Shown one piece after another: positions 3,606 to 20,585 of a stretch of 21,633 nt of DNA. Position numbers and translations under genes: made by a program. The stretch comes from a virus: positions 1-21,633 of IMG/VR virus record IMGVR_UViG_3300036791_000758. One strand, given 5' to 3'. Each line of letters opens with the position of its first letter. Positions within the stretch are counted from its first letter, which is position 1. The notes beneath the pieces are model-generated. The model was given only the letters and a program-made list of their open reading frames with translations, searched no databases and had not been told where the DNA came from.

Positions 3606-3738
3606 AAAGCGACGCACGCGGCCGACCCCGCCCGTCCCCCGGCGACCCCCCGGGCCGTAAAAGGCCCCCTGGCCGCCCCGGACGCTGGCCCTTCGGCAAG
3701 CCCCGCCGGCTGACACCAACTACGCGGAGGTTTGACCG
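3606..3738. promoter_or_regulatory. Non-coding leader before capsid gene with hairpin and strong RBS
   Basis: This 133-base gap is the largest between head genes. I see no start codon giving a credible peptide. It contains a hairpin GGGCC (3652-3656), loop GTAAAA, GGCCC (3663-3667), with no U-tract after it. A GGAGG Shine-Dalgarno (3727-3731) precedes the capsid ATG. Together these suggest a leader tuned for high capsid expression, by a promoter, RNA processing or structure. No convincing -35/-10 pair is visible. Confidence 0.45.
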
Positions 3739-5100
3739 ATGAATCCTGTACTTGACCGTCTACGCGTCCAGCGGGCCGAACAAATGGCGGCCATGGACGC
3801 GGTGCTGTCTCAGGTGTCCGACGACCGGGACCTGGTCGACGCCGAAAAATCTTTGTTGACGGCCACCCAGCAGCGTTTGGGCGAGATCGACGCCCAGATC
3901 AAACCTTTGGCCGACTACGAGGACATGCGGGCCGCCCACGAGGCCGCCGCCGCCTCGTTGCCCCAACCGCGCGGCGACCGGCTGCCGGCCCAGCCCCGCC
4001 GCCTGGACGCCGAGTCCCGCGGGTTCGTGTACGCCTCGGCCGGCTCGTTTCTGGTGGACTATCTGCGGGCGCATGGGATCACCGATCGGGGCAACCCGGA
4101 TCCGGCCGCGGCGGCCAGGATCGCCCAAACCCGGGCGGTGGCCGACCAGAAGACCACCGACACTACCGGCGTGCTGCCCACCCCCATCGTCGGCCAGGTC
4201 GTCAACCTGATCGACGCTAACCGGCCTTTCATCTCGAGCCTGGGCGGCGCCAAAGCGTTGGACAACATCCCCGGCGCCACCTTCACCCGCCCCAAGATCA
4301 CCACTCACACCACCGTGGGCCAGCAGGTCCCGGCCGGCGGGGCCGGCGAAAAAACGCAGCTGCCGTCCCAGAAGATGACGATCAGCCCGGTGTCGTTCGC
4401 CAAGAATACCTACGGCGGCACCGTCGACATCTCAAGACAGGACATCGATTGGACCAGTCCGTCAGCGTGGGACATTTTGGTTCGAGATCTGGCCAACGTC
4501 TACGCCGTGCAAACCGAGACGGCGGCGGCGGCCGCCTTCAAGACGGCGGCCACGGCCACCGCGGTGGTGGTGGCCACCAACGACCTGAAAGGCTGGACGC
4601 TGGCGTTGTACACGGCGGCTATGCACGCCTATTCGGCCGGGTTCATGATGCCCGACCGGATTTGGTGCTCGCTGGACGTGTGGGCCGCCCTCGGCTCGCT
4701 GGTCGACGTGGCCCGGGTGGTGCTGCCGCAGAACACCACCGACGAGATGAACGCCCCCGGCACCTCCACCCTGGCCTCTTTCCGGGGCGACATGCTGGGC
4801 GTCCCCCGGGTGGTGGTCCCCACCTTCGTGGCCGGGACCTGCATCGTCGGTAACTCGTCGCTGTTCGAGGTGTACGAGCAAGTCATAGGCCTGTTGTCGG
4901 TGATCGAGCCCAGCATCCTGGGGGTGCAGGTGGCCTACGGCGGCTATGTGGCCTGGGGTGCCCTGCAGGGCGCCGCCCTGGTGCCGCTGACCCCGCCGGC
5001 CGGCATGCCGACCATGCTCGAGGCCGACGAAGAGCCGCCCGCCGACGAACCCGACGCGGCGCTGTCGCCCGGTCCGGGCGCCGCGGCCCGCAAACGGTAA
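3739..5100 (+). CDS. Major capsid protein, HK97 fold
   Basis: Predicted 453 residues; builds the icosahedral shell. The N-terminal 75 or so residues are charged and coiled-coil-like (LSQVSDDRDLVDAEKSLL, then QQRLGEIDAQI), which matches the delta (scaffold) domain removed by the protease encoded upstream. The HK97 core follows from about residue 95, with VLPTPIVGQVVNLIDANRPF, the segment NTYGGTVDISRQDIDWTSP, and LGVPRVVVPTFVAGTCIVGN. The C-terminal 30 or so residues are acidic and Pro-rich, then end in ARKR. A clear GGAGG ribosome-binding site precedes the ATG. The exact cleavage site is not visible. Confidence 0.95.
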   Translation: MNPVLDRLRVQRAEQMAAMDAVLSQVSDDRDLVDAEKSLLTATQQRLGEIDAQIKPLADYEDMRAAHEAAAASLPQPRGDRLPAQPRRLDAESRGFVYASAGSFLVDYLRAHGITDRGNPDPAAAARIAQTRAVADQKTTDTTGVLPTPIVGQVVNLIDANRPFISSLGGAKALDNIPGATFTRPKITTHTTVGQQVPAGGAGEKTQLPSQKMTISPVSFAKNTYGGTVDISRQDIDWTSPSAWDILVRDLANVYAVQTETAAAAAFKTAATATAVVVATNDLKGWTLALYTAAMHAYSAGFMMPDRIWCSLDVWAALGSLVDVARVVLPQNTTDEMNAPGTSTLASFRGDMLGVPRVVVPTFVAGTCIVGNSSLFEVYEQVIGLLSVIEPSILGVQVAYGGYVAWGALQGAALVPLTPPAGMPTMLEADEEPPADEPDAALSPGPGAAARKR

Positions 5101-5105
5101 CCGGA

Positions 5106-5537
5106 GTGGCCTGGACTATCAAACCGGCCGGGTCGTGGGGCATTGCTACCAGCAATGCCCCCGCCACCGACGTGGCCGCGGTGTTGGCGTTGCCCGGATC
5201 GTGGAAGTTCGATCAGTACCCGCAGGGGGCGACGCCAACGCAGCGGCTCTACGTCCGCAAGGACCAGTGGGCCACGCTGGCGGCCACACCAAGCGTCGAC
5301 AGCATCACGCCGACCGGGGGGCCGGTGGCGGGCGGCACGGGCGTGACCATCCGGGGCTCGGGTTTGATCGGTTCGACCGGGGTCACCTTCGGCGGCACCG
5401 CCGCCACCGGCTTTATCGTCAACAGTGACGCCACCGTTACTTGCATCTCGCCCGCCCACGCTGCCGGGGCGGTGCCGGTCGTCGTTTTGAACCCGCGCGG
5501 CAACGTGACCGCGGCCGAGCAGTACACCTACGCCTGA
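5106..5537 (+). CDS. IPT/TIG Ig-like protein, probable capsid-associated
   Basis: Predicted 143 residues, GTG start five bases after the capsid stop. Residues 58-143 form an IPT/TIG immunoglobulin-like domain: SITPTGGPVAGGTGVTIRG, then VTFGGTAATGF, then ISPAHAAGAVPVVVLNP and a final YTYA strand. The first 57 residues are a separate part with no family I recognise and may anchor the domain to the particle. Ig-like domains are well known on phage capsids, tail tubes and tail tips and are thought to aid weak surface binding. Position directly after the capsid gene suggests a decoration role, but a head-tail role cannot be excluded. Confidence 0.7.
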   Translation: MAWTIKPAGSWGIATSNAPATDVAAVLALPGSWKFDQYPQGATPTQRLYVRKDQWATLAATPSVDSITPTGGPVAGGTGVTIRGSGLIGSTGVTFGGTAATGFIVNSDATVTCISPAHAAGAVPVVVLNPRGNVTAAEQYTYA

Positions 5538-9783: not shown

Positions 9784-10952
9784 TGGCTGTCCCCACTCTC
9801 ATCTCGCCGTCACCGAACCCTGCTTCCGGGGTGATCGGCGCCACCGTGGCCCTGTACGGCACCGGCCTGGACACTGTTACCACCGTCACCGTCGGCGGCA
9901 TAGCCGTGAGCTCGTTTTTGCAGCAGTCCGCCACCAGCATGCTCATCACCGCCCCCAATCACGCCAATGGGGCGGTGTTCGTCTTCGCCACCAACCCGGA
10001 CGGCATGTCCAATTCGGTCGTGTTCACCTATGTGCCGGCCTACGTGCCGACCGGGCCGGGCTGCGCCCGCAGCGCCTGGCTGGTGCTCGGTTCGCTGGTG
10101 GTGCCGTTGGAGAACTTCACCGGCGGCTGGTTCTGTGAAAGCCTGGATTTGGGCTACCCGGCCGTGCGGGAGGTGGTGTCGAACAAACCTTCCCAGGACG
10201 GCGTCGACGACCGCACCCAGTACATGGGCGGCCGGGTGGTGTCGGCCAACGTGCACACCGTGGCCGGCGCCGGCGCCCGCATCGACGCGGTGGCGTCGCA
10301 GTTCGCCCCGTTCATGGTCCCCTCCGCCCGGCCGATCCTGCACTATGTGTTGGACCGGCCCGGCGCCCCCGAACGCACCATGGTGCTCCGCCCGTCGGGG
10401 TACGCCTGGCCGGTCGCCGGCGGCCAGGAACGCCAAATCCAGATGCAGTGGCTGGCCGCCGACCCCGCCGCCGTCGACCCCAACCTGCAGACCGCCATCT
10501 CCTGGTCGGGGGCGTCCACCTCCCCCGGACGGCTGTATAACCTGACCTTCGACCGGGCCTACCCGGCCGGCGGCGGCTCAAGATCCTCGGCGGTCGTCAA
10601 ATCCTACGGCGACCTGCCGGTCCGCCCGAAATACCGGATTTACGGGCCGATCACCCAGCCGGTCGTCAGCGTCAGCCAGGACGGCACCGGCAGCGGGGTG
10701 GTCTACTTTCTGGCCTCCTTCAACGTCAACGCCGGCCATTTCGTGGAGGTCGACTCCTGGAATAAGACCGCGGTGATGGACGGCGACCCGGCCCAGTCGA
10801 TGGTCACCTATCTGGACTGGCAGAACTCCAAGTGGACGCCCATCCAGCCCATGCCCCCCTCGACCACCGGCGCCCTGGTCCGCCTGGACGGAAGCTCTAC
10901 TTCCGGGGTCACCCAGGTGCAAACCATCTGGCAGGACCGGTTCCTGACATGA
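9783..10952 (+). CDS. Distal tail (Dit-like) protein with N-terminal IPT/TIG domain
   Basis: Predicted 389 residues. The start ATG overlaps the tape-measure stop by one base; the frame is open far upstream but that part is a shadow of the tape measure. Residues 1-85 are an IPT/TIG Ig-like domain (PNPASGVIGATVALYGTGL, then ITAPNHANGAVFVFATNPDG, ending VVFTYV). The rest resembles siphophage tail proteins of the Dit group: VPLENFTGGWFCESLDLGYP, then PAVREV and DDRTQYMGGRVVSANV, which fit the usual start of that domain. It is placed right after the tape measure, as Dit genes are. The N-terminal Ig fusion is the unusual part. Confidence 0.78.
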   Translation: MAVPTLISPSPNPASGVIGATVALYGTGLDTVTTVTVGGIAVSSFLQQSATSMLITAPNHANGAVFVFATNPDGMSNSVVFTYVPAYVPTGPGCARSAWLVLGSLVVPLENFTGGWFCESLDLGYPAVREVVSNKPSQDGVDDRTQYMGGRVVSANVHTVAGAGARIDAVASQFAPFMVPSARPILHYVLDRPGAPERTMVLRPSGYAWPVAGGQERQIQMQWLAADPAAVDPNLQTAISWSGASTSPGRLYNLTFDRAYPAGGGSRSSAVVKSYGDLPVRPKYRIYGPITQPVVSVSQDGTGSGVVYFLASFNVNAGHFVEVDSWNKTAVMDGDPAQSMVTYLDWQNSKWTPIQPMPPSTTGALVRLDGSSTSGVTQVQTIWQDRFLT

Positions 10953-16837: not shown

Positions 16838-17004
16838 GCGCCGCCGAGGTCGCCGACATGCTCGAGGACCTGCGCAGCCACCTCGAGGACGCCCGGCTGG
16901 TGGCCAGCCGGCTCCCGTATGGCCACTCGATGCGCACCGCCCTGGACGAGCTGCTGGAGGAAACCAACTTCCTGATCGCCATCACCGCCGAGGGCCGGCC
17001 GTGA
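16834..17004 (+). CDS. Small helical protein of unknown function
   Basis: Predicted 56 residues from the GTG at 16834, which overlaps the previous stop (GTGA), and ends overlapping the GTG of the RecT gene in the same way. The text (AAEVADMLEDLRSHLEDARL, then SMRTALDELLEETNFLIAI) is amphipathic helix with many Leu and Glu, likely a helical hairpin or dimer. No family is recognised. Tight coupling on both sides supports it as a real gene. Confidence 0.6.
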   Translation: MSAAEVADMLEDLRSHLEDARLVASRLPYGHSMRTALDELLEETNFLIAITAEGRP

Positions 17005-17867
17005 GCGGCGAGCAGTCTGCGGTCCCGGTCCCGTCGGCCCCTGGGGAAGTAGGCCAGGCTGCCGCTCTCCAGCGGAAGGGAGAGACGCCAGCACCGGGAC
17101 CGCAGCACTACGACGAGAGTTACCTACCGGAATGGGTGCAAACCCGGCCGCCGGTGGCAAACCCGGATTTGCAGGCGTTGCGCCGCCACTACGGCGCCCA
17201 TAACGCCAGCCAGGGCGACCTGGAGATGTACGCGGCGGCGGCCCGACATCTCGACTTGTCCATCCCAGCCGGGGAAATCGCCCTGGTCCCCTACGGCGAC
17301 ACCAATCACATCCAGATCACCATCGAGGGCCGCCGTACCATCGCCCACCGCACCGGACGGCTGCGAGGCATCCAAGGCCCGCAGTGGTGCGGACCGCGCC
17401 GCTTCAACGCCGACGGGGCCAAACTCCCGCTCGACTGGGAAGAGGTCTGGACCGGCGCCGGCAACCCCTACGCGGCCCGCTGTTTCGTCCTAGTCGAAGG
17501 GTGGGACACCCCGGTCAACGGCACCTGCCGGTTCGTGGAGTTCCAGCAGCCGACAAGCCCGGTGTGGAAGAAATATCCGGCCCACATGCTCGGCAACGCC
17601 GCCGAAAAACTGGCCCTACGGCGCGGGTTTTCCGCCGAGATCGGCCGGGCGCTCACCGAGCTGGCCGACATCACCGGCGACTACCACCCCGTAGACGACG
17701 AAACCGGAGAAATTGAACCTGATTCCCCTACCGCCGCGGCACCGACACCGCGCGCGCCGGGGAGCGCCGCACCGGCCGGTGTGGGGCCCCTCCCGCCGGC
17801 CGGGCGGCGCGACCAGCCGCCCCCAGGTTTTTACGACAACCTGCCCGAAGCGCGTGGGTGGCGGTGA
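17001..17867 (+). CDS. RecT/Bet-family single-strand annealing protein
   Basis: Predicted 288 residues, GTG start overlapping the previous stop. Binds and anneals single-stranded DNA in phage recombination. The RecT-type core is visible: LPEWVQTRPPVANPDLQALRR, then YAAAARHLDLSIPAGEIALVPY, HIQITIEGRRTIAHRTGRLRGI, and PVWKKYPAHMLGNAAEKLALRRGF near residues 190-215, a family hallmark (a conserved WK-P-M-L-K-A-ALR pattern). The last 60 residues are a disordered Pro/Ala-rich tail ending in GFYDNLPEARGWR, perhaps a partner-binding end. No partner exonuclease gene is recognisable nearby. Confidence 0.87.
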   Translation: MSGEQSAVPVPSAPGEVGQAAALQRKGETPAPGPQHYDESYLPEWVQTRPPVANPDLQALRRHYGAHNASQGDLEMYAAAARHLDLSIPAGEIALVPYGDTNHIQITIEGRRTIAHRTGRLRGIQGPQWCGPRRFNADGAKLPLDWEEVWTGAGNPYAARCFVLVEGWDTPVNGTCRFVEFQQPTSPVWKKYPAHMLGNAAEKLALRRGFSAEIGRALTELADITGDYHPVDDETGEIEPDSPTAAAPTPRAPGSAAPAGVGPLPPAGRRDQPPPGFYDNLPEARGWR

Positions 17868-18094
17868 GTGGGGTACATGAACGGCTACGCGCCATCGAAC
17901 GGCGCCTACGTAAACACCACGCCGAACCGTTGTACACCGACGAGGAGATCGACGGTCTCGACGACGACCAGGCGACGCGCAGCGTCCGGGCCGAGGGCGA
18001 CCGGCTGGCCATGCTGGCCCAGCTGGAGACCGAGATGAACCGGGGACCGTCTCGCCGTGGCCGTGAAGGACCCGACCAGGGCCGGTTGTGGTGA
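17864..18094 (+). CDS. Small charged protein of unknown function
   Basis: Predicted 76 residues from the GTG at 17864, which overlaps the RecT stop as GTGA; a GTG at 17858 would add two residues. It is highly charged: an N-terminal basic helix (HERLRAIERRLRKHHAEPLY), an acidic middle (TDEEIDGLDDDQATRS) and a basic end. No family is recognised. It lies between the recombination and replication genes and is coupled to both. Confidence 0.6.
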   Translation: MSGVHERLRAIERRLRKHHAEPLYTDEEIDGLDDDQATRSVRAEGDRLAMLAQLETEMNRGPSRRGREGPDQGRLW

Positions 18095-18684
18095 ACATCG
18101 CCGCGGTGATGGCCGCTCTTGATGTGTGGGACCTCGACCATGCGGCCAAGCACGCCCTGGTGACGGTGTGCTGCCGGGCCGACCGTTACACCGGAGTAGC
18201 CCAGGTAGCGATCCCGCGGGTGGCGGCCGACATGAAGGTCAGCTATAAGACAGCGCAGCGGGCGCTACGGCGGGCTGTTGACGCCGGCTACCTGACTGTG
18301 GATAACCAAGCCGGGGCGGCGTCCAACTGGCGGCTGACCCCTGTAATGGTTACAGGGGTACCGCGGGACCCTGGGTCCCGCGCACCGCGGGACCCAGGGT
18401 CCCGCGCGAAGGAGTCTTTGGAGAAAGACAGGAGCGCCAGCCATCCAGCCCGGCTGGCTGGCGCTGGGGAAAACCGCCGCGGCTACGCCGCCTCACGCGC
18501 CGAGATGAACCACGCTTGCGACCCCGTCAACATCGCCGCCTGCCCCTACTGCGACGAGCACGGCTGGCTGTACAACGACGATAACTCCGTCGTCGGTCGC
18601 TGCGACCACCAGCGCGAGGTCAGCGACCTCACCCTCGACGACGTCCTAGACGACGTCCTCGAACGGGACGGCACCCATGACTGA
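18091..18684 (+). CDS. Replication initiation-like HTH protein
   Basis: Predicted 197 residues from the GTG at 18091 (18088 is also possible). Residues 1-85 form a winged helix of the phage replication/HTH_36 type: WDLDHAAKHALVTVCCRADR, then VAIPRVAADMKVSYKTAQRA, then LRRAVDAGYLTVDNQ. Residues 88-130 are a low-complexity linker with two copies of PRDPGSRA, encoded by a set of DNA palindromes. Residues 140-175 hold a zinc-site-like motif CPYCDEHGW ... CDH. It likely binds an origin inside its own gene and recruits host replication proteins, in the style of lambda O. It is the only replication-initiator candidate in the window. Confidence 0.7.
   Translation: MNIAAVMAALDVWDLDHAAKHALVTVCCRADRYTGVAQVAIPRVAADMKVSYKTAQRALRRAVDAGYLTVDNQAGAASNWRLTPVMVTGVPRDPGSRAPRDPGSRAKESLEKDRSASHPARLAGAGENRRGYAASRAEMNHACDPVNIAACPYCDEHGWLYNDDNSVVGRCDHQREVSDLTLDDVLDDVLERDGTHD
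18337..18406. repeat. Three palindromes at 24-bp spacing, candidate replication origin
   Basis: Palindrome 1: ACCCCTGTAA (18337-18346), TGG, TTACAGGGGT (18350-18359). Palindrome 2: 18362-18382, arms CGCGGGACCC and GGGTCCCGCG around a central T. Palindrome 3: 18386-18406, the same arms around a central A. Arms are perfect in all three. Centres are at 18348, 18372 and 18396, exactly 24 bp apart. Palindromes 2 and 3 are also inverted copies of each other. They lie in the linker region of the replication gene. Confidence 0.75.
18433..18465. repeat. Fourth inverted repeat in the replication gene
   Basis: AGCGCCAGCCA (18433-18443) pairs perfectly with TGGCTGGCGCT (18455-18465) around an 11-base centre that itself contains CCAGCC/GGCTGG. 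It lies just after the three-palindrome cluster, off its 24-bp phase. It may be part of the same origin or an RNA hairpin. Confidence 0.6.
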
Positions 18685-19030
18685 CGATTTCGAGGGCCGC
18701 CTGTTCAAACCCATCCCGGCCAAGGACCGGCCCCGTCAGACCGACCCGGCCCGACTCATCTCGCCCGACATCCTGGATCGGGTCTCACCCCGCATGCGGG
18801 AACTGATCGAACGGTGCCTGGAACAGTCGCTTACGGCCGGGGCGGTTCGCCTCCCGCCGCGCTGCACATTCCGGGGTTGCGACGAGCTGGCCACCGAACG
18901 ACACCACTACCTCGAGAGGGAGATTTTCGGGCGGCTGGCCGAGTTCGGACCGATCGAACCGTTATGCGCCGACCATCACCACCTGATCACCGCCATCCGA
19001 GACGCCTCCCGAAAACCGGTGCACGAATGA
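18677..19030 (+). CDS. HNH-like zinc-site protein
   Basis: Predicted 117 residues, overlapping the replication gene by eight bases. Residues 60-110 contain CTFRGCDELATERHHYLERE, then EPLCADHHHLITAI. The Cys pair, the HH in the middle and the late C-x2-HHH resemble a treble-clef HNH-like fold, but the usual Asn is not clear, so activity is uncertain. The N-terminal 55 residues are polar with a helix (RVSPRMRELIERCLEQSL). It may be a nuclease or a DNA-binding zinc protein of the replication region. Confidence 0.6.
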   Translation: MTDDFEGRLFKPIPAKDRPRQTDPARLISPDILDRVSPRMRELIERCLEQSLTAGAVRLPPRCTFRGCDELATERHHYLEREIFGRLAEFGPIEPLCADHHHLITAIRDASRKPVHE

Positions 19031-19185: not shown

Positions 19186-19358
19186 CTGACGATTCTGACG
19201 AGCGGGAACGCCAACACCAGGCCGAGGCCGCCCAGATCGAACGACTGTTCGCCACCTTGTGGGTGACCCGCCGCCGCCGGGCTATCCGCTCCCGCCAGCG
19301 GCTCCGCCAGCGCGGCATCCCCACCGAAGCCGAACGCCGCAAAGACAGCGGCTCGTGA
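19182..19358 (+). CDS. Small highly charged helical protein
   Basis: Predicted 58 residues. Almost all charged: an acidic start (TDDSDERERQHQAEAAQIER) followed by a very basic stretch (TRRRRAIRSRQRLRQRG). Probably helical and possibly nucleic-acid-binding. No family is recognised. Its start overlaps the previous stop (ATGA) and its own stop overlaps the GTG of the methyltransferase gene (GTGA). Confidence 0.55.
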   Translation: MTDDSDERERQHQAEAAQIERLFATLWVTRRRRAIRSRQRLRQRGIPTEAERRKDSGS

Positions 19359-19957
19359 AGGACGGCACGCAGTCTCCGGAGAATCGTGCTTATCTGCAAC
19401 TTGCCTACGCTGACCCGCCCTACTACGGGTCATGCCAGCGATACGGCCATGAGCACGGCACCGGCGGCTGCTGGAACGACCTGGAGACGCACACGGCGCT
19501 GCTCGATCGGCTGGGCGGCTACGACGGCTGGGCGCTCAGCTGCACCACCAACAGCCTGCGACACCTGCTGCCCATGTGCCCCGAAAAGGTGAGGGTGCTC
19601 GCCTGGGTGAAACCGTGGGCTACGTGGAAGAAAGGTGTCAGTCCCGCCTACGCGTGGGAGCCCGTACTAGTCAAAGCGGCACGCCGGCCACCCGCGCCCG
19701 AGGATCGCCTGGGCACCAGCGATTTTGTGCCGGTGGACTGGATGCAGCACCACATCGAACACGGCGGATTCACCGGCGCCAAACCACTGGCGGTCTGCCG
19801 CTGGATCTTCCAATGCATGGGCGCCGACCGCGACGACACCCTCGAGGATCTGTTCCACGGTTCCGGCGCGGTCAAGAGGGCATGGGAGCACTACCGGACG
19901 CATCTCACGCTGTTCCCCGGCGACCGGCCCGACCAGGGGGTGCTTGACGGTGTCTAG
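19355..19957 (+). CDS. DNA methyltransferase, N6-adenine/N4-cytosine type
   Basis: Predicted 200 residues, GTG start coupled to the previous stop. The catalytic motif IV ADPPYYG is at residues 19-25 (DPPY at 20-23), and the cofactor motif I DLFHGSGAV at 165-173. Motif IV before motif I is the permuted beta-type order of amino-methyltransferases. DPPY points to adenine-N6, but N4-cytosine cannot be excluded. The target-recognition part is short. No restriction enzyme gene is next to it, so it is an orphan enzyme, perhaps protecting phage DNA from host restriction or marking it. Confidence 0.85.
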   Translation: MKDGTQSPENRAYLQLAYADPPYYGSCQRYGHEHGTGGCWNDLETHTALLDRLGGYDGWALSCTTNSLRHLLPMCPEKVRVLAWVKPWATWKKGVSPAYAWEPVLVKAARRPPAPEDRLGTSDFVPVDWMQHHIEHGGFTGAKPLAVCRWIFQCMGADRDDTLEDLFHGSGAVKRAWEHYRTHLTLFPGDRPDQGVLDGV

Positions 19958-19979: not shown

Positions 19980-20585
19980 CAACAGCGGCCCCGGCTCCTC
20001 GACCTGTTCTGCGGTGCCGGCGGCGCCGCCATGGGCTACCACCGGGCCGGATTCGACGTGACCGGCGTCGACGTGGAAAGCCAACCGCACTTTCCTTTCC
20101 ACTTCATCCAAGCCGACGCCCTGGCCTGGCCGCTCGAGGGATACCACGCCATCCACGCCTCACCCCCCTGTCAGGCGTGGAGCAGGGCCACCGCGTGGAG
20201 CGGTGATCGCTCATCGCACCCGAAGCTGATCGCCCCGGTCCGCGAACGGCTCCGGGCGTCAGGTCTGCCGTACGTGATCGAGAACGTCCAGGAGGCCCGC
20301 CACGATCTACGCTCCCCGATCCGCTTATGCGGCTCACAGTTCGGCATCGCCGTCCAATCCCACCGTTGGTTCGAGATCCGGCCGGAACCCTTCCGCCTGA
20401 TGCCGCCATGCCATCACCGGGCGACCGACGCCAGCCGGGATCACGGTGCCAAGCAGACCGAGTCCGAGTTCCGGGGCGCGCTCGGATGTGACTGGATGAG
20501 CGTTCAGGAGGCCCGCCAGGCAATCCCGCCCGCCTATACCGAGTGGATCGGCGCCCAGCTACTCGAGGTGCTCCAGCATGCCTAG
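19950..20585 (+). CDS. DNA cytosine-5 methyltransferase
   Basis: Predicted 211 residues, GTG start inside the previous gene (eight-base overlap). Motif I DLFCGAGGAAMGYHRAGF (residues 18-35), catalytic C74 in SPPCQAWS (motif IV), E111 in VIENV (motif VI), QSHRWFE (motif VIII-like) and AIPPAYTEWIGAQLL (motif X) are all present, so it should be active. The family usually has 300 or more residues with a large recognition domain; here only about 45 residues lie between motifs VIII and X, giving a minimal enzyme like others in actinophages. It follows an amino-methyltransferase directly. Confidence 0.88.
   Translation: MSSADNDVYPQQRPRLLDLFCGAGGAAMGYHRAGFDVTGVDVESQPHFPFHFIQADALAWPLEGYHAIHASPPCQAWSRATAWSGDRSSHPKLIAPVRERLRASGLPYVIENVQEARHDLRSPIRLCGSQFGIAVQSHRWFEIRPEPFRLMPPCHHRATDASRDHGAKQTESEFRGALGCDWMSVQEARQAIPPAYTEWIGAQLLEVLQHA

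Follow-up and report, generated by a model that had tools for sequence, protein, structure and literature searches.

Positions 18297-18473 of the window, the stretch of DNA analysed here (21,633 bp, 68% GC, the whole of its IMG/VR record), are identified as the probable lytic theta-type replication origin of a small uncultured phage, lying inside the coding sequence of its own initiator; the probability of this reading is put at roughly 0.83. A few model systems with in-gene origins are known; the candidate described here can be recognised purely by comparing sequences, since one DNA element is retained through changes of frame and turnover of the encoded peptide. DNA-level conservation, compensatory palindromes, enrichment of DnaA boxes, a weak element kept independently of frame and an initiator-like protein all emerged from the computation, and the DnaA box, the low-stability element and a hairpin support the assignment as a putative origin. 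An earlier note on this DNA had proposed an in-gene origin of the lambda O kind, which appears right in substance given the compensatory 10-3-10 dyads across the family and the peptide turnover; that note spoke of the hairpin but of neither the DnaA box nor the low-stability element.

Gene context and features of the candidate origin

The window encodes portal, capsid and prohead protease proteins, as expected of a tailed phage, and carries a tyrosine integrase and a Cro/CI-type repressor. Among the genes scanned no polymerase, helicase or primase was recognised. The HTH gene (18088-18684) follows RecT (17001-17867) and a small ORF (17858-18094), while the gene downstream (18677-19030) matched neither Pfam nor a helicase-loader PHROG. 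The features discussed below are as follows.

18088-18684, plus strand: putative initiator gene, 198 aa; N-terminal winged HTH, disordered linker and small C-terminal Cys/His part (CPYC...C.H)
18297-18305, minus strand: DnaA box TTATCCACA, encoded as (T)VD(N); the sole TTWTNCACA in the window
18337-18359, no strand: palindromic iteron 1, ACCCCTGTAA-tgg-TTACAGGGGT, arms 10, spacer 3; the family's 10-3-10 dyad
18362-18382, no strand: palindromic iteron 2, CGCGGGACCC-T-GGGTCCCGCG, arms 10, spacer 1
18386-18406, no strand: palindromic iteron 3, CGCGGGACCC-A-GGGTCCCGCG, arms 10, spacer 1; tandem 24-bp duplicate of iteron 2
18409-18432, plus strand: candidate DNA-unwinding element AAGGAGTCTTTGGAGAAAGACAGG, with a core that relatives conserve in each of the three reading frames
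18433-18465, no strand: GC-rich hairpin AGCGCCAGCCA/TGGCTGGCGCT, 11 perfect pairs, 11-nt loop
18465-18473, minus strand: degenerate second DnaA-like box TTTTCCCCA; TTTTCCACA in relatives L004, L005 and L009

Palindromic iterons in the linker-coding DNA

Three perfect palindromes with 10-bp arms are centred at 18348, 18372 and 18396, in 24-bp steps, just as the earlier note had described. In Markov (dinucleotide) simulations of the window, arms of at least 10 bp turn up at a rate of 0.45 per 21.6 kb; three of them within 70 bp are therefore beyond chance. Iterons 2 and 3 form a direct tandem duplication of 24 bp (8 codons) with one mismatch, at the dyad centre. This duplication explains both the repeated peptide PRDPGSRA, which is indeed present twice in the translated linker, and the remark that either palindrome of the pair is the other in inverted form; the remark is true, but it is automatic for palindromes and adds no information. 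The suggestion that bound dimers would lie on nearly the same face of the helix does not hold, since a 24-bp step corresponds to 2.29 turns and places successive dimers 103 degrees apart.

The half-site of iterons 2 and 3, ACCGCGGGAC (18362-18406), is unlike that of iteron 1, ACCCCTGTAA (18337-18359), whereas relatives use one half-site for all units; perhaps a second protein is involved or a change of specificity is in progress. The half-site of iteron 1 agrees with that of L008, and in both proteins the presumed recognition helix reads SYKTA. The exact sequence of palindromes 2 and 3 was not found in an IMG/VR search from which the window's own record was possibly left out.

Conservation of the DNA across a family of relatives

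Single-sequence protein searches of IMG/VR, GTDB genomes, phages and plasmids returned no useful relatives. The family of 13 members, consisting of the window and 12 relatives from viral metagenome contigs, comes from a RecT search (L004), a two-protein HTH alignment (L005-L010), an extended alignment (L011-L013) and the conserved DNA element itself (L023 and L024). Close relatives of the family are apparently absent from the 50,697 annotated phage records, and searches of genome collections yielded no host. Ten members in alignment A5 share 34-55% identity with the window protein, mainly within the HTH part, and linker peptides are unrelated between most members. Aligning the relatives, as the earlier note had proposed, showed dyads that persist while the linker peptide changes, and its view that the DNA is under more selection than the protein is borne out across the family, where the DNA of the segment is conserved and the linker peptide is not.

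With the homologous T codon of W-x-L-T as the reference point, a 10-3-10 dyad with at least 8 of 10 complementary pairs occupies the same place in 7 of the 13 members despite differing sequence (ACCCCTGTAA in the window, ACCTCCCGAA in L006, ACCTCGGTCA in L009, ACCTCATCAA in L023, and others); at dyad position 6, all four Watson-Crick pair types are found among members. As a control, only one of 2795 positions in HTH-coding DNA scores as high, and the observed level of compensatory pairing was reached by 0 of 10,000 permutations of the right arm. Half-sites repeat in direct orientation at steps of 23, 22 and 22 in most members; the repeating unit is therefore a 22-24 bp iteron, in many cases, though not in all, completed to a palindrome. 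The earlier note had held that relatives without palindromes would refute its reading: L005 and L011, and less clearly L013, are such relatives, but they keep half-site iterons and the melting element, and palindromy is therefore one form of the iteron and not its defining feature. Palindromes are evidently not universal in the family, and predicted iterons are present in nearly all members. L005 and L011 retain a DnaA box; L013 has none.

Compared with synonymous recodings, the linker-coding DNA has a strong excess of palindromes in the window and in L004 (p=0.003) and a moderate one in several other members; L005, L011 and L012 show no such excess, and the HTH-coding part gave no convincing excess in any member. 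These comparisons bear on the idea that a repeat driven by the protein, namely the tandem duplication of PRDPGSRA, carries the palindromes incidentally. A 24-bp unit of 8 codons and the tandem origin of iterons 2 and 3 would fit such a history, but synonymous recoding rarely produces palindromes of this kind, and the idea, which is scarcely credible, is refuted by relatives in which the DNA architecture persists although the peptides are unrelated and even the reading frame can differ.

DnaA boxes, candidate melting element and hairpin

TTWTNCACA is expected 0.25 times per window by shuffling and was observed once, within the gene. An in-gene DnaA box is found in 12 of the 13 members, and matches number 15 in 7.0 kb of initiator-gene DNA versus 1 in 122.8 kb of flanking DNA; given the protein and codon usage, the chance of a box is 0.01-0.08 per member. 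The box of L011 lies about 15 bp upstream at another codon, the usual VDK there being VVK. After the hairpin stands TGKGGAAAA, which becomes a full DnaA-box match in three members (L004, L005 and L009).

The core of the candidate melting element, AAGGAGTCTTTRGAGAAA, lies 3' of the iterons and is conserved among relatives in reading frames 0, 1 and 2: it reads KESLEK in the window, L005, L011 and L023, GEGVFREK/N in L006, L009 and L024, and LRSLKEK-like in L007. Although it was selected by sequence and not by stability, the element has, in 11 of 12 members, the lowest stability among the gene's 24-bp stretches or comes within 0.7% of it. The AT-richer core of palindrome 1 had been put forward as a possible site of melting; the weakest duplex is instead at 18409-18432. 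Exact matches to the element in IMG/VR number 12, of which six are family members and six are unrelated chance matches in other genes, two of these being the same sequence, while the pattern TGTGGATAA-N96-125-GGAGTCTTTRGAG (DnaA box, spacer and element) retrieves six contigs from all of IMG/VR, every one a family member. Between the HTH and the C-terminus, the reading frame of the element in L006, L009 and L024 differs from that in the window; L024 still ends in a window-like Cys/His motif despite its other frame, which implies compensating frameshifts in the linker.

The fourth inverted repeat that the earlier note had marked at 18433-18465 withstands codon shuffling (p=0.005), and a significant hairpin stands at the equivalent place in 9 of 12 members, the hairpins being scored one by one. 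Both this hairpin and the palindromes would fold in mRNA, as they should if they acted there in the control of translation or transcription. An RNA element of this sort is very unlikely: no Rfam family rose above threshold, RNAalifold gave no consensus structure for the downstream segment (where the alignment is poor), and neither the direct half-site iterons of the palindrome-less L005 and L011 nor the DnaA boxes have an explanation in RNA. Perfect palindromes with arms of 11-14 bp are also present outside the initiator gene, at 5137-5161 in the window and at 3688-3716, 4606-4633 and 6721-6749 in L004, and some may be terminators.

The putative initiator and alternative roles for its sites

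The window protein matches replication-initiation PHROGs weakly (E 2e-4), while phrog_270 (replication initiation) is matched in 7 of 8 members (best 3.6e-8), the O-like phrog_391 in 4 of 8 (best 2.8e-5) and phrog_2030, 'transcriptional regulator', in 6 of 8. In Pfam it has only sub-threshold matches, to HTH_36 and GntR. The AF2 model has an N-terminal wHTH at a pLDDT of about 90, followed by a low-confidence linker and a small C-terminal part; residues 91-150 are predicted to be disordered (pLDDT 41-48), in agreement with the earlier description of a linker without visible fold. A PDB fold search is topped by generic winged helices at E of about 3e-3, CodY, MarR and SlyA among them, and the centromere-binding wHTHs TubR and AspA are listed among many matches.

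Regulator-like folds, the phrog_2030 matches and the pairing of palindromes with an HTH protein would suit a transcription regulator acting from operators inside the gene to repress either its own operon or a neighbouring one. This is improbable, as the iteron-1 half-site is absent from the rest of the window, including the DNA upstream of the gene, even with one mismatch allowed, replication initiation is the best and most frequent PHROG match, multi-copy arrays of 22-23 bp are typical of origins, and the DnaA boxes, the frame-independent weak element and the hairpin would go unexplained. The TubR and AspA matches raise the thought that the HTH protein binds a parS-like centromere or another kind of segregation site, centromeres being at times iteron arrays. 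The odds of this are slimmer again: no ParA- or TubZ-like gene was seen among the genes scanned, the tyrosine integrase indicates that the phage probably integrates, and such a site accounts for neither the DnaA box nor the weak element, both of which an RNA element or a repeat driven by the protein would likewise leave unexplained.

Returning to the origin, a comparison of distances bears on which protein might bind the iterons. Across nine members, with half-sites partly hand-picked and phylogeny uncorrected, half-site distance correlates with the distance between presumed recognition helices (r=0.56, p=0.001), whereas the control with the N-terminal segment gives r=0.16 (p=0.24); this is suggestive only of iteron binding by the wHTH.

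From the arrangement of these parts we infer how binding, melting and helicase loading might proceed, and what the hairpin and C-terminus might do. Dimers of the N-terminal winged HTH would bind the palindromic or direct iterons at 18337-18406, assisted by host DnaA on the 18297 box and perhaps on the degenerate one at 18465 as well. The initiator-DnaA complex would then melt the adjoining weak duplex at 18409-18432, after which host helicase and primase could be loaded, possibly via the small C-terminal domain of the initiator, and the hairpin at 18433-18465 would mark a boundary or serve in priming. On this view the linker peptide would be a by-product of the DNA sites. Several points speak against an origin: the GC-skew turn predicted near 18.4 kb was not seen, GC skew being uninformative; no lambda-P-like loader was recognised beside the gene; the half-site of iterons 2 and 3 departs from that of iteron 1; L005 and L011 lack palindromes and L013 a DnaA box; and the initiator match of the window protein is weak.

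Comparison with known origins

The candidate origin would operate in the manner of lambda O/ori and of pSK41, with DnaA boxes in addition. Repeated dyad-symmetric candidate initiator sites inside the initiator gene, as in a lambda-type in-gene origin, appear both present and conserved here. The lambda origin lies in the middle of its initiator gene, where iterons about 19 bp long, in the form of imperfect inverted repeats within O, stand beside an AT-rich tract (PMC7466680), and in both systems a low-stability tract directly adjoins the iterons (PMC7466680; here 18409-18432). An N-terminal DNA-binding domain and an iteron-encoded linker are further likenesses. Unlike lambda, the family has DnaA boxes inside the origin, steps of 22-24 bp and G+C-rich DNA, and the protein has a small Cys/His C-terminus, no O sequence family match beyond the weak O-like PHROGs and no recognised P-type helicase loader encoded next to it in the window. 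The window initiator is not clearly a lambda O homologue on these comparisons.

The RepA_N plasmid pSK41 has its origin within the linker-coding part of rep, and the linker is dispensable for initiator function in trans (PMC5703833). An N-terminal winged HTH, sites central in rep, a linker encoded by the origin and a separate C-terminus are shared with the window. In the hybrid initiator of pPR9 a phage HTH_36 N-terminus travels with its origin (PMC5703833), and the window protein has its own sub-threshold HTH_36 match. According to the same review, no DnaA boxes have been detected in plasmids of staphylococci (PMC5703833). Unlike RepA_N proteins, the window protein has neither a RepA_N domain match in Pfam nor a homologous C-terminal domain, and because no such domain was matched it is not counted as a RepA_N member.

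P1 oriR, pSC101 and F place initiator iterons beside DnaA boxes and a weak-duplex region, with the origin outside the initiator coding sequence. The family resembles them in having iterons near one or more DnaA boxes (12 of 13 members) and weak duplex, and differs in that every part of the proposed origin is coding DNA. For the RepA proteins of mycobacteriophages Miko and Rachaly, an origin within repA was suggested and no repeats were found (PMC7157519); these are likewise HTH initiators of actinobacteriophages, but belong to extrachromosomal prophages with parABS, and no sequence relation to the window was found.

There is about an even chance that the family is an undescribed type of phage replicon in which all origin parts, including host DnaA boxes and a melting element conserved in sequence whatever its frame, lie in the initiator coding sequence, and in which recognition helix and iterons co-diverge as a transferable module. 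If so, the co-diverging module would offer a naturally occurring series from which the specificity code could be read. The family predicts DnaA-dependent phage replication and offers ready-made small replicons for GC-rich hosts, and the co-evolution of initiator and binding site becomes directly testable across 13 natural variants by swaps of domains or iterons.

Other observations on the window and L004

In L004, at 10046-10055, the sequences of the window's two ends stand next to each other, right before left, separated by 8 bases that the window lacks. The window therefore has the appearance of a complete genome, and those 8 bases may represent either a cohesive-end overhang or a gap in the assembly. 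The best named matches of RecT are to a Microcystis phage and cyanophages (38% and 31%), ahead of Gordonia phages. A tRNA-Ile (gat) lies at 8489-8574 of L004 between methylase-like genes and is absent from the window. Two genes of the window, at 19355-19957 and 20010-20585, have methyltransferase-like motifs (YADPPYYG; LLDLFCGAGG) with no Pfam match, and the DNA of the first is more than 90% identical to L004.
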